DNA from: Stappia sp. 28M-7
GTDB taxonomy: Bacteria > Pseudomonadota > Alphaproteobacteria > Rhizobiales > Stappiaceae
Reading direction: 5' to 3'
NCBI RefSeq assembly: GCF_014252955.1
Contig: NZ_JACMIA010000001.1
Span: forward strand, 4,114,258-4,178,257
Length of the DNA: 64,000 nucleotides
A model generated the notes under the pieces. It saw only the letters and a list, made by a program, of their open reading frames with translations, was not told the origin of the DNA and searched no databases. The position numbers and the translations under genes are program-made. Positions 4,623-61,232 of the stretch are shown in pieces (positions within the stretch are counted from its first letter, which is position 1; the number at the start of each line of letters is the position of its first letter).

Positions 4623-5267
4623 ATGACCGCCATCGACGAACTCAGCGCCCTCGATCTTGCCGCCCTGGTGGCGAGCCGCGTCTGCCACGACATCATTTCT
4701 CCCGTTGGCGCAATTACCAATGGCCTTGAGGTTCTCGACGAGGAGAACAACGAGGACATGAAGGAATTCGCCATGGACCTGATCCGCAAGAGTGCGCGTC
4801 AGGCCTCGGCGAAGCTGCAGTTCGCGCGTCTTGCCTTCGGCGCTGCCGGATCGGCCGGCGCGGAGATCGACCTCGGCGATGCCCATTCGGTCGCGGCCGG
4901 CTTCCTGGCCAACGAGAAGGCGGATCTGGACTGGCAGGTGCCCCGTCTGCTGATGGCCAAGAACCGGGTCAAGCTGCTGCTCAACCTGATCCTGCTGGCC
5001 AATCAATGTGTCCCGCGCGGCGGCCTGATCACCGTCACCATGGACGGCGATGCGCAGGCGCCTACCTTCCGGTTGAAAGTAACCGGATCGACAACCAAGG
5101 TTCCTGCTCTTGTCCTCGAGATGACATCCGGCAAGGAGCCGGAGAGGATCGACGCGCATACCGTCCAGCCGGTCTATGCAGTGCTTTTGGCTCGGGAGTC
5201 GGGCATGGATTTAGAAGTCGTTAAGGAAGACGACGGAGTCAGCATTACTGCAGCCTCGATAGGTTAA
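4623..5267 (+). CDS. chpT: Histidine phosphotransferase ChpT
   Basis: ChpT passes phosphate from the hybrid kinase CckA to the response regulators CtrA and CpdR. The 214-residue protein shows the DHp-like motif SRVCHDIISPVGAI with the phospho-accepting His at residue 22. A second helix and a degenerate ATPase-like domain follow (residues about 85-210), without intact ATP-binding boxes, as in the family. Start ATG 4623 gives the normal length. It sits 130 bp upstream of cheA on the same strand, so cotranscription with chemotaxis genes is possible. It is one of three CtrA-pathway genes in the window. Confidence 0.9.
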   Translation: MTAIDELSALDLAALVASRVCHDIISPVGAITNGLEVLDEENNEDMKEFAMDLIRKSARQASAKLQFARLAFGAAGSAGAEIDLGDAHSVAAGFLANEKADLDWQVPRLLMAKNRVKLLLNLILLANQCVPRGGLITVTMDGDAQAPTFRLKVTGSTTKVPALVLEMTSGKEPERIDAHTVQPVYAVLLARESGMDLEVVKEDDGVSITAASIG

Positions 5268-11403: not shown

Positions 11404-11479
11404 TGGCACCCCCAAGGGGACTCGAACCCCTGTTTCCGCCGTGAGAGGGCGGCGTCCTAGACCGCTAGACGATGGGGGC
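11404..11479 (-). tRNA. tRNA-Glu (CTC)
   Basis: On the minus strand a full cloverleaf can be drawn. The acceptor is GCCCCCA paired with TGGGGGT (G1-U72 wobble). The anticodon stem CCGCC/GGCGG encloses loop CTCTCAC with anticodon CTC. The T arm is AGGGG-TTCGAAT-CCCCT, with discriminator G and an encoded CCA. Length is 76 nt including CCA. It stands alone between cheR and the DUF6476 gene. Confidence 0.95.
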
Positions 11480-23955: not shown

Positions 23956-25131
<1,176 letters not shown>

Positions 25132-25215
25132 CTGACTACCCTTTCAGATAGGTGCTCCTCGTTGGGGAGGAGTGGCCCACTGACGGGGATATCCGAAGGG
25201 CGGCCCGCCCGCAAG
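25132..25215 (-). promoter_or_regulatory. serC leader RNA (candidate)
   Basis: On the minus strand, CTCCTC-CCCAAC-GAGGAG is a perfect hairpin (plus-strand 25155-25172). A second stem, CTATC-TGAAAG-GGTAG (25136-25151), covers the GAAAGG ribosome site just before the serC ATG. The known serC leader of alphaproteobacteria (Rfam family as I recall it) is described as having its final stem overlap the serC ribosome site, which fits. Outer boundary is approximate. Confidence 0.65.
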
Positions 25216-26220: not shown

Positions 26221-26278
26221 GTATAAAATGCTTAAGGCTGGCTTAACCGTAAAATTTAACCGCCTTTTTTTACCTTAA
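26221..26278 (-). promoter_or_regulatory. CtrA-type box and promoter ahead of outer-membrane protein gene
   Basis: TTAA (26232-26235), seven bases GGCTGGC, TTAA (26243-26246) match the CtrA consensus TTAA-N7-TTAA exactly. Further TTAA cores lie at 26256 and 26275. On the minus strand TTATAC (plus 26221-26226) is a good -10 sequence, so the box overlaps the -35 region, the usual layout for CtrA-controlled promoters. About 67 bases of leader would follow. The stretch 26147-26416 holds otherwise only the glmM terminator. Confidence 0.6.
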
Positions 26279-26360
26279 CGAAGAGTAAACAATCGCGAAT
26301 ACCCATTGCGATCGGCAATAGTTCTCCCCCGGTCTTTGCAAATCATTAACCATATGAAGA

Positions 26361-37070: not shown

Positions 37071-37085
37071 TTAAGCCAGCGTTAA
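37071..37085 (-). promoter_or_regulatory. CtrA-type box upstream of tolQ
   Basis: TTAA (37071-37074), GCCAGCG, TTAA (37082-37085) match TTAA-N7-TTAA exactly. The gap 36912-37098 separates ybgC from tolQ. On the minus strand TTATCG lies nine bases after the box and may be a -10. The spacer differs by one base from that of the box ahead of the outer-membrane protein gene, read on the opposite strand. Confidence 0.55.
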
Positions 37086-42419: not shown

Positions 42420-42585
42420 AGGAAGATGACGTGGCCACCTCGGCCGTTGGAGGTTGCAATCCCGGGAAACCTACAGAGTAGGTGGGCGCCGTATACTCCA
42501 GCCCACGGGCCGGAGCAGGAACAGCTCCCTAGGGATGCGTAAGGCCCCGGGGATATGTCTCCTGACGCACCGCGCAGCCACGCCA
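42420..42585 (-). ncRNA. ssrS: 6S RNA (candidate)
   Basis: The 324-bp gap between zapA and the cyclo-ligase gene is where 6S RNA sits in many proteobacteria. On the minus strand the sequence can fold as a long rod. The apical stem GTGGGC/GCCCAC is at plus 42482-42487 and 42501-42506, with a smaller CCTA/TAGG hairpin nearby. A terminal pairing of GGAGA near the 5' end with TCTTC near the 3' end is possible. No ORF fits. Ends are approximate. Confidence 0.65.
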
Positions 42586-59242: not shown

Positions 59243-59437
59243 ATGCAGGACGAGTTCGAATCGAAGACCAGTTCCCTCGCCTCTCCGGTCGTCGTGGGCG
59301 AGGATCTGTCGCGACTATCTGTGGATGAACTGACAAGGCGCATTGAGCGGTTGACAGAGGAGATTTCCCGCACCGAGCGAGAGCGGGACGCTCGCGGCGG
59401 CGTGCGCGCCGCTGCCGATGCCCTGTTCCGCAAGTGA
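59243..59437 (+). CDS. DUF1192 small coiled-coil protein
   Basis: This 64-residue protein has an unstructured start, then VGEDLSRLSVDELTRRIERLTEEISRTERER, the hallmark of DUF1192, and a basic tail. It is a small helical protein of unknown function found close to rcdA in Rhizobiales. An AGGAGG-like ribosome site lies just before the ATG. A long AT-rich non-coding region follows. Confidence 0.85.
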   Translation: MQDEFESKTSSLASPVVVGEDLSRLSVDELTRRIERLTEEISRTERERDARGGVRAAADALFRK

Positions 59438-59554
59438 TCGCATGATCGGCAGCGGCACAGTTAACTCACGCTATTTACTTCAAATTTGACTTTGGGAGCC
59501 TTTGCGTCAAGCAAGCAGATTCACTAAAAATTTAGTCATTTACTATTTATTAAG
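59438..59554. other. AT-rich non-coding stretch before sRNA candidate
   Basis: In strong contrast to the surrounding GC-rich DNA, 59460-59570 is rich in A and T with no open frame of note. It likely contains the promoter for the following RNA. With the sRNA candidate and 59672-59870 it makes a 433-bp gap without a protein gene; 59672-59870 presumably holds the rcdA promoter. Confidence 0.5.
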
Positions 59555-59671
59555 CTTTCTAATTCATAACTGTGGGTATCCAGTCATCTGGATTTCGAGT
59601 GGCTCCTGTCCACTCTGTTTGACGCCTCCCTGTTAATGACTTCGAGCCGCGGACACCGCGGCTCTTTTTTT
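59555..59671 (+). ncRNA. Candidate trans-acting small RNA with three hairpins
   Basis: Three stems follow one another: ATCCAG-TCAT-CTGGAT (59578-59593), GAGTGG-CTCCTGT-CCACTC (59597-59615) and GAGCCGCGG-ACA-CCGCGGCTC (59644-59664). The last is followed by seven T, an excellent intrinsic terminator. The linker between stems 2 and 3 carries CCTCCC and the loop of stem 2 carries CTCCT, both complementary to ribosome-binding sites. There is no protein frame with a ribosome site. The 5' end is a guess. It resembles in style the rhizobial MmgR (alpha-r8) or alpha-r14 RNAs. Confidence 0.6.
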
Positions 59672-59870
59672 GCCGGCTCCTTCGGTGTATCCCCTGTTGC
59701 GTGCCTACCCGCCTGCGCCAGACGGTGTGGCACGCCGATTGCACGATACACTTTGACCCGACCGCAACGCCCCGATTTGGGACATTTGCCCTGCCAAGGC
59801 CTCGCAGAAGCGCCGGCAGACACCGCGGTTGCAAGGTATTGAGACAAAGCTGGACAGGAGGCACTGGCGC

Positions 59871-60410
59871 ATGACGGACTGGTTCTCATCCACACGGAGA
59901 AGCACCATCGACTTCGCCGACCGGCTCGCCAATTCGGAAATGTTCTCCGCACTTTTCCGGGATGGCATGGCCCTGGTCGAAGAGACCGCCGCTTATCTCG
60001 ACGGCGAAGGACGGGTGCAGTCGAAGTCGCTGCCGCGTGCGGGCTCGCTCGCCTATGCGACGGAATCCATGCGCCTGACCACCCGGCTGATGCAGATGGC
60101 CTCCTGGCTTCTGCTCCAGCGCGCCGTCAACGAAGGCGAGATGTCGGCCGAGCAGGCCGGCAGCGAGAAGAACAAGGTGCGCCTCGACACGCTCTCCTCC
60201 ACGCGCGGCGGACCCGGCTGGCAGGAGCTCCCCGAGGAGCTGCGCGACCTGATCGAGCGCTCGGTGCGCCTGCAGGAGCGGATTCAGCATCTCGACAGGA
60301 TGATCTACGAAAGCCGCCACGCGGAGCCGGTGCCGGTCGACAATCCGGTCGCGATCCAGCTCGACGTGCTCAGCGCCGCTTTCGGCGGGCGCGGCAGCTC
60401 GCTCGGCTAA
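59871..60410 (+). CDS. rcdA: Regulator of CtrA degradation RcdA (DUF1465)
   Basis: RcdA is a ClpXP adaptor that helps degrade CtrA at the G1-S transition in Caulobacter. The 179-residue protein has RSTIDFADRLANSEMFSALFRDGMALVEETAAYLDGEGR, then RLTTRLMQMASWLLLQRAVNEGEM, the DUF1465 hallmarks, and a C-terminal helix. ATG 59871 with ACAGGAGG upstream fits the family start. It lies after the sRNA candidate and is convergent with rpmE, sharing a terminator. Confidence 0.9.
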   Translation: MTDWFSSTRRSTIDFADRLANSEMFSALFRDGMALVEETAAYLDGEGRVQSKSLPRAGSLAYATESMRLTTRLMQMASWLLLQRAVNEGEMSAEQAGSEKNKVRLDTLSSTRGGPGWQELPEELRDLIERSVRLQERIQHLDRMIYESRHAEPVPVDNPVAIQLDVLSAAFGGRGSSLG

Positions 60411-60644: not shown

Positions 60645-60869
60645 TCAGTTGCCCAAGAAACCGGCGTACTTGTTCTTGAAGCGCGAGACGCGGCCGCCAC
60701 GGTCCATGAGCTGGCGGTCGCCGCCGGTCCATGCCGGATGGGTGCGCGGATCGATGTCGAGCTGCAGCGAGTCGCCGTCCTCGCCATAGGTCGAGCGCGT
60801 GTGGAACTCGGTGCCGTCCGTCATGACCACCTTGATGGAGTGGTAGTCGGGATGAATGTCCTTCTTCAT
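60645..60869 (-). CDS. rpmE: 50S ribosomal protein L31
   Basis: This 74-residue ribosomal protein begins [21 protein letters not shown] and ends with a basic [11 protein letters not shown]. The Zn-binding Cys of other L31 forms are absent here, so this is the Cys-less type. The frame is open upstream, but ATG 60869 gives the family length. It is divergent from the ABC exporter. Confidence 0.94.
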
Positions 60870-61232
60870 CTTCTCGTCCCCGTGCCTGCGGCTTACACCG
60901 GCCCTGGGGAGGCGCGGCGCATTCATGTTGGAGTTGTCGGCGTGTCCCCGTCCGTCGGGCAGGACAAGCGCGCCCGGTGGCGTCGTGTCACAGCTTCTTG
61001 ACGAAGTCACGGATTCGTTGGCGGGCCACGCAGGCAAGCGCGCAGCACCTGAAACCTTGAGCGCGAGCCTATAGCCCATCCATCGGCCGAAAACAAGGCC
61101 GCAAAGCCGAGTTTCCGCCGCCGCCCGTCAGGGCCCCCGCGACAAATGCGACCGCTCGCGCAGGTTGGCCTTCCCGCCTCGAACCGGTATGGTCCGCCAG
61201 GCATCCGGCAGGAACAGAGAGCAAGAACAAGC
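60870..61232. other. Intergenic region between rpmE and ABC exporter gene
   Basis: These 363 bp hold no credible gene. Promoters for both divergent genes must lie here but I cannot place them. If the exporter starts at 61146, the region is 276 bp. Confidence 0.4.

Follow-up and report, generated by a model that had tools for sequence, protein, structure and literature searches.

A BjrC1505-family small RNA gene upstream of rcdA in Stappia sp. 28M-7 and its predicted CtrA-box promoter

The three-hairpin locus at positions 59574–59671 of the analyzed stretch of the Stappia sp. 28M-7 genome (64,000 nucleotides, referred to below as the window) is a genuine small-RNA gene that belongs to a known Rfam family, RF02356 (BjrC1505), with one copy of the RNA in this genome. 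The gene probably encodes a trans-acting small RNA that is activated by CtrA and uses its linker UUUGACGCCUCCCUGUU to pair with ribosome-binding sites. The family itself is already known, and the RNA at this locus is another member of it. The new element would be the CtrA-box promoter of the BjrC1505 RNA, in which the box was found directly and the binding of CtrA is predicted.

In the proposed mechanism, RNA polymerase would start about 20 nt after the CtrA box, which would replace the −35 element, and a trans-acting RNA of approximately 98 nt would be produced. Transcription should follow the level of phosphorylated CtrA through the cell cycle, provided that the predicted CtrA binding and start site are correct. 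The RNA would end at its own terminator, as comparison supports, and its two hairpins and terminator would frame the highly conserved C-rich linker, which most likely would pair with Shine-Dalgarno regions and block the translation of target mRNAs. The features of the locus are listed in Table 1.

Table 1. Features of the RNA locus and its surroundings in window coordinates
Feature	Position	Strand	Basis or remark
serC leader	25131-25182	-	
6S RNA	42428-42583	-	
DUF1192 gene (PF06698), upstream neighbour	59243..59437	+	
Rfam RF02356 BjrC1505 match	59532..59671	+	first ~40 model positions read as promoter
CtrA-box-like element TTTACTATTTATTAA (TTAA-N7-TTAA, one mismatch), -35 position	59539..59553	+	conserved in 74/77 dereplicated loci
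-10-like element CATAACT	59565..59571	+	~12 nt after box; conserved TA there in 74 loci
Predicted sRNA transcript, 98 nt	59574..59671	+	5' end inferred from promoter, 3' end from terminator
Hairpin 1, stem ATCCAG/CTGGAT	59578..59593	+	sequence and covariation
Hairpin 2, stem GAGTGG/CCACTC, loop CUCCUGU	59597..59615	+	sequence and covariation
Conserved linker UGUUUGACGCCUCCCUGUU, presumed seed	59616..59634	+	sequence conservation
Terminator stem GAGCCGCGG/CCGCGGCTC, 9 bp	59644..59664	+	sequence, terminator scan, covariation
Intrinsic terminator, 9-bp stem and seven U	59644..59671	+	sequence, terminator scan, covariation
rcdA (PF07323 DUF1465), downstream neighbour	59871..60410	+	

Identity, spread and structure of the RNA

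The RF02356 model matched the locus over its full length (positions 1–140 of 140) with 116.3 bits, compared to a curated cut-off of 50. Sequence, structure and terminator were the same as in this Bradyrhizobium RNA, including covarying hairpins and an intrinsic terminator; discrete expression at the locus in Stappia is predicted. Madhugiri 2012 is reportedly the paper cited for the Bradyrhizobium BjrC sRNAs. The first-pass annotation had considered membership in the alpha-r8/MmgR or alpha-r14 groups, or a new RNA, and all three suggestions were superseded by the RF02356 match. The suhB/MmgR model RF00519 yielded a weak full-length similarity to the 3' part of the BjrC1505 RNA, at 23.2 bits against a cut-off of 41, and a separate MmgR copy was located in the same genome, 104 kb from the window start, at 63.9 bits. 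The Rfam ar14 model was not among the five matches obtained at E ≤ 10.

Within the same taxonomic family, 83 of 87 genomes contained a match to RF02356 and the other four did not. Across the order, 331 of 397 genomes from 122 of 141 genera matched, 288 genomes being above the cut-off, and across the class the corresponding values were 40 of the 385 genomes drawn and 17 above the cut-off. The model gave no match in any of the 14 control genomes, including Caulobacter vibrioides, which has rcdA. Three genomes of one same-family genus (G016, G020 and G027) were without a match despite a completeness of 99–100%, and the relatives in this genus that do match reached just 62–84.5 bits. Promoter and RNA of the window resemble the named Stappia loci L091 and L113. 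Two core RNA copies, 200 nt apart, were seen in L055 and L056.

A new covariance model, R1, was built on the transcript alone and matched 103 of 372 class genomes at E ≤ 0.01, its E-values being rough. Ten genomes scored with R1 had been chosen for their RF02356 matches, and their ten hits are a result of this selection. The best class matches were then compared with the position of rcdA, using 66 rcdA rows that were meant for genomes with an RNA match (some lack one) and an rcdA search that covered 359 of the 372 class genomes. A match that preceded rcdA on its strand by no more than 6 kb was seen in 20 of 33 cases at 40 bits or more, in 15 of 48 at 30–40 bits, and in none of 22 below 30 bits; for matches of 30–50 bits, this arrangement was found in 19 of 55 genomes. 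By this comparison, the weak tail of matches is partly real.

The structural claims of the first-pass annotation were borne out. Three perfect stems, the last followed by seven T, are present in the sequence, and a terminator scan agreed with the third. The upstream stretch is AT-rich (63% A+T at 59440–59573, compared to 33% in the window), of the two CTCC motifs one occupies the stem 2 loop and the other the linker, and the DUF1192 gene ends 206 nt before the terminator stem. A small RNA with its own terminator, as had been proposed, is supported by the stems, the terminator scan and covariation. No loss of the stems was observed in relatives that keep rcdA, since all 30 family loci, the window's own included, retained both RNA and rcdA.

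The predicted 98-nt transcript had a folding energy of −38.7 kcal/mol (z −4.5), and the 140-nt Rfam extent folded with z −5.4; none of 200 shuffles was as good in either case. In the predicted fold, part of the linker forms a weak hairpin around CGCCUCCC. A large closing helix in the 140-nt fold (approximately 59534–59543/59633–59642) was dropped, as its 5' side lies inside the presumed promoter.

Covariation was evaluated in an alignment of box-bearing loci only. From 77 representatives less than 80% identical over promoter and RNA, three boxless loci and ten with deviating hairpins were removed, leaving 64 references, of which 63 were aligned and L100 was left out. The compensatory changes that the first-pass annotation had proposed to look for were found in all three helices, with 14 of 19 pairs changed on both sides. 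The number of cells changed on both sides was 59, compared to a shuffled mean of 11.8, which indicates that the stems are more than a product of chance. Paired cells amounted to 94.9%, compared to 34.6–54.0% when the partners were slid.

The linker UUUGACGCCUCCCUGU was nearly invariant among the 63 aligned representatives, although for loci L079–L196, which were picked by the linker letter string, this invariance exists by construction. The class loci that RF02356 detected likewise showed few changes in the linker. Rhizobium-like copies (L230–L234) carry an altered linker, UUUUUCUCCCUGUUUU, and reached 38–40 bits with model R1.

The promoter region and its CtrA box

At the position of the promoter, a TTAA-N7-TTAA element was observed, which in the window reads TTTA-N7-TTAA, with one mismatch. 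The full palindrome is a Caulobacter CtrA motif (PMC4287350). Because RF02356 itself contains the box, loci found with that model may be biased, and a set defined by the linker string only was therefore used. It comprised at least 118 loci (L079–L196), of which 113 entered the box count. Among the loci listed, the box with at most one mismatch was present in 111 of these 113 and perfect in 53; after dereplication (<80% identical), it was present in 50 of 52 listed linker-string loci, and in 47 of the 52 it fell into one 12-nt slot. When the 77 representatives of all loci were considered, the box was perfect in 39; in the final count as a whole, only L035, L082 and L180 were without it. Dinucleotide shuffles contained the box in 12.9% and a perfect box in 1.1% of cases, and the control region, the 80 nt preceding DUF1192, contained it in 1 of 60.

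Loci with too little upstream sequence are excluded from these counts (180 loci were counted against shuffles, and 113 and 73 in the final count). From 194 candidate loci, L050 and L059 were dropped, having no core match; their genomes were found again with R1 (L221 and L214), and both carry the box. The first core regular expression also missed L045, L049, L051, L053, L054 and L058.

Conservation extended to positions outside those used for selection, namely a C after the first half-site (77%) and a T at position 20 (81%). At the place expected for a −10 element, approximately 12 nt downstream of the box, a TA pair was conserved at 69% and 78%. The best −10 hexamers were only slightly better than shuffles, so the −10 element is weak, and a promoter scan of the region found no consensus sigma-70 promoter.

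The fixed spacing of the half-sites, the additional conserved C, the near absence of the box upstream of DUF1192 and the agreement with the consensus TAA-N7-TTAAC of verified S. meliloti CtrA sites (PMC3616915) all speak against the view that the TTAA-N7-TTAA pattern stems from a different regulator or from an AT-rich element of the promoter. Such a source, to which the imperfect window copy (where CtrA binding is a prediction) and the sigma-70 promoter predicted for S. meliloti sm84 (PMC2573895) lend some weight, is considered unlikely. The conserved promoter instead suggests that CtrA switches the RNA gene on. The cell-cycle link proposed in the first-pass annotation was thus a good guess, although it is best supported by the CtrA box of the promoter and less by the neighbouring rcdA.

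From the position of the box we infer a transcription start near 59574 and an RNA of 98 nt, so that the first 40 or so positions of the RF02356 model appear to be promoter rather than RNA. Unlike the transcript predicted here, the Rfam model seems to include the promoter as RNA.

Elsewhere in the window, further TTWA-N7-TTAA sites lie at 5210–5224, 26232–26246, 26275–26289 and 37071–37085, two of which match on both strands. In this GC-rich sequence, seven matches were counted, including the RNA's own box, compared to 0.01 expected from shuffles. A tRNA is located at 11407–11479 (−).

Relation to rcdA and candidate targets

Among the loci listed, 161 had at least 1200 nt of downstream sequence, and in 149 of them the next gene on the RNA strand was rcdA. 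The RNA was found without rcdA nearby in the other 12, and the box was present in all 12. In the rcdA-less loci inspected, the next genes were, for example, O-acetylhomoserine sulfhydrylase-like or thioesterase-like, as named by eye. In G127, G254 and G351, three genomes of the class whose RNA matches are strong, rcdA lies 42–46 kb from the RNA and on the other strand. Because the box is kept in the 12 rcdA-less loci, the RNA looks like a separate gene and not simply a leader of rcdA.

These loci bear directly on the possibility that the RNA is a 5' leader or attenuator of rcdA, in which the CtrA box would be the rcdA promoter and the hairpins would terminate transcription or allow read-through, tuning rcdA. 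The predominant adjacency of the two genes fits such an arrangement, as do the CtrA-dependent rcdA start site in Caulobacter (PMC4287350) and the conserved CtrA control of rcdA predicted in a comparative study (PMC2877005). Besides the rcdA-less loci and the three genomes with a distant rcdA, however, two results from S. meliloti argue against it: CtrA binds the rcdA promoter region, yet CtrA depletion left rcdA mRNA unchanged (PMC4433202), and the RNA detected at the corresponding position forms a discrete species of 80–100 nt (PMC2573895, PMC2873474). A leader function is accordingly rated as quite improbable. Several start sites are described for rcdA in agrobacteria, where the predicted CtrA boxes are also more distant upstream than those of Caulobacter (PMC10469942). 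The S. meliloti CtrA motif scan covered regions upstream of ORFs (PMC3616915); given this scope and the comparative prediction, a small-RNA promoter at this place would be credited to rcdA.

A second box between the terminator and rcdA was observed in 24 of 63 representatives, compared to 3.2 expected from shuffles, and in 9 of 10 Rhizobiaceae-like loci (L225–L234), whose family label is taken from their likeness to named Mesorhizobium loci. No second box occurs between the RNA terminator and rcdA in the window. A perfect second TTAA-N7-TTAA, often followed by CTTGC, was seen in L094, L095, L100, L104, L115, L148, L173, L176 and L181, and likewise before rcdA in L225–L227 and L229–L234. In many lineages, the sole box of the RNA–rcdA intergenic region would then sit at the RNA, while in lineages with a second box CtrA may also control rcdA, and in Rhizobiaceae-like genomes the boxes may serve both the RNA and rcdA. 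A reading frame at 60645–61079 (−) resembles ribosomal protein L31 (rpmE), by eye.

Pairing with rcdA was evaluated for both exposed regions of the RNA. Loop 2 can pair over 10 bp with TGGACAGGAG at 59851–59860, just before the rcdA start, which is the sole perfect match of this 10-mer in the window apart from the RNA itself, and in Roseibium-like loci and some others, a GAGGCGT close to the start of rcdA is compatible with linker pairing. The RNA could on this basis be a cis-linked regulator of rcdA, with loop 2 and linker pairing with the rcdA ribosome-binding site. However, among 30 family loci the full 10-bp match was limited to the window genome and its close congeners L006, L010, L015 and L022, and pairing of the linker with rcdA starts over 63 representatives, some of whose automatic starts are wrong, was no better than in shuffles (median z −0.15, 5 of 63 below −2). 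General targeting of rcdA was therefore rejected, and a cis-linked role is held to be improbable as well. A comparison of median linker pairing over 111 loci (−15.3 kcal/mol for rcdA, compared to −12.7 for DUF1192 and −10.6 for qor) was discarded, as its starts were badly chosen and it included no shuffles.

GcrA, SciP (we take DUF1153 to be SciP) and FlbT were present in 41 of 41 family genomes. The starts of their genes showed no excess of pairing with the linker or loop 2, the linker z values being −0.35 for gcrA (n = 30), +1.07 for sciP (n = 30) and +0.19 for flbT (n = 29). A scan of 25 genomes for long antisense targets, made with the 14-nt linker complement and at most one mismatch, returned the RNA gene and scattered other sites. 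No target emerged from these comparisons. Action of the trans-acting RNA through linker pairing is thus proposed by analogy with other alphaproteobacterial small RNAs and from the C-rich, conserved and unpaired or weakly paired nature of the linker.

Published relatives and significance

The gene order serC leader, 6S RNA, SmelC671 and MmgR in S. meliloti is also the order in the Stappia genome, and the strands of the serC leader, 6S RNA and BjrC1505 RNA agree between the two, with MmgR reversed. From this gene order, the BjrC1505 RNA would correspond to SmelC671/Sm84. The gene SMc03989 is presumably rcdA. SmelC671/Sm84 lies in forward orientation between the forward genes SMc03988 and SMc03989 (PMC2573895), and its length was 100 nt by sequencing (PMC2873474), whereas the 2008 table gives about 80 nt under detection, a column taken here as northern blot (PMC2573895); size range and placement between two forward genes are shared with the Stappia RNA. 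ReC71 of R. etli is given as a relative of SmelC671 (PMC3927594), and the SmelC671 row of a review table, in the excerpt available, shows no sigma factor (PMC7143759).

Other small RNAs of the cell cycle differ in their location. CcnA of Caulobacter crescentus has 182 nt, and its gene is found at the origin of replication and not next to rcdA (PMC8959179, PMC4287350). EcpR1 (SmelC291) and GspR (SmelC775) are rhizobial small RNAs that act on cell-cycle mRNAs (PMC4414408, PMC5928217); both were rejected as counterparts, EcpR1 being located at rpmG/divK-pleD (PMC4414408) and GspR at SMc03844/SMc03845 (PMC5928217), compared to DUF1192 and rcdA as neighbours here.

In the literature searched, which consisted of excerpts of openly accessible papers, no report was found of CtrA control of the BjrC1505, SmelC671, Sm84 or ReC71 RNA, nor of a CtrA-regulated small RNA matching this one. 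BjrC1505 appeared there as a table entry of a single paper, with neither function nor regulation described. A search with the sequence-motif letters of the RNA returned no bacterial small-RNA paper, judged by title and abstract.

More tentatively, the RNA may be an ancient arm of the alphaproteobacterial CtrA circuit, in which CtrA activates the RNA through the box credited to rcdA in the literature and the RNA represses a set of mRNAs post-transcriptionally, with rcdA included in some lineages. If this is true, repression of rcdA in those lineages would feed back on the degradation of CtrA itself. If CtrA drives the RNA, the finding that CtrA occupies the S. meliloti rcdA promoter region without an effect of its depletion on rcdA mRNA (PMC4433202) would become testable. 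A box driving the small RNA would explain at least part of that result, with the second box as a caveat. A functionally undescribed Rfam family would likewise gain a regulator and a corrected 5' end, and few small RNAs are known to form part of the core cell-cycle circuitry.
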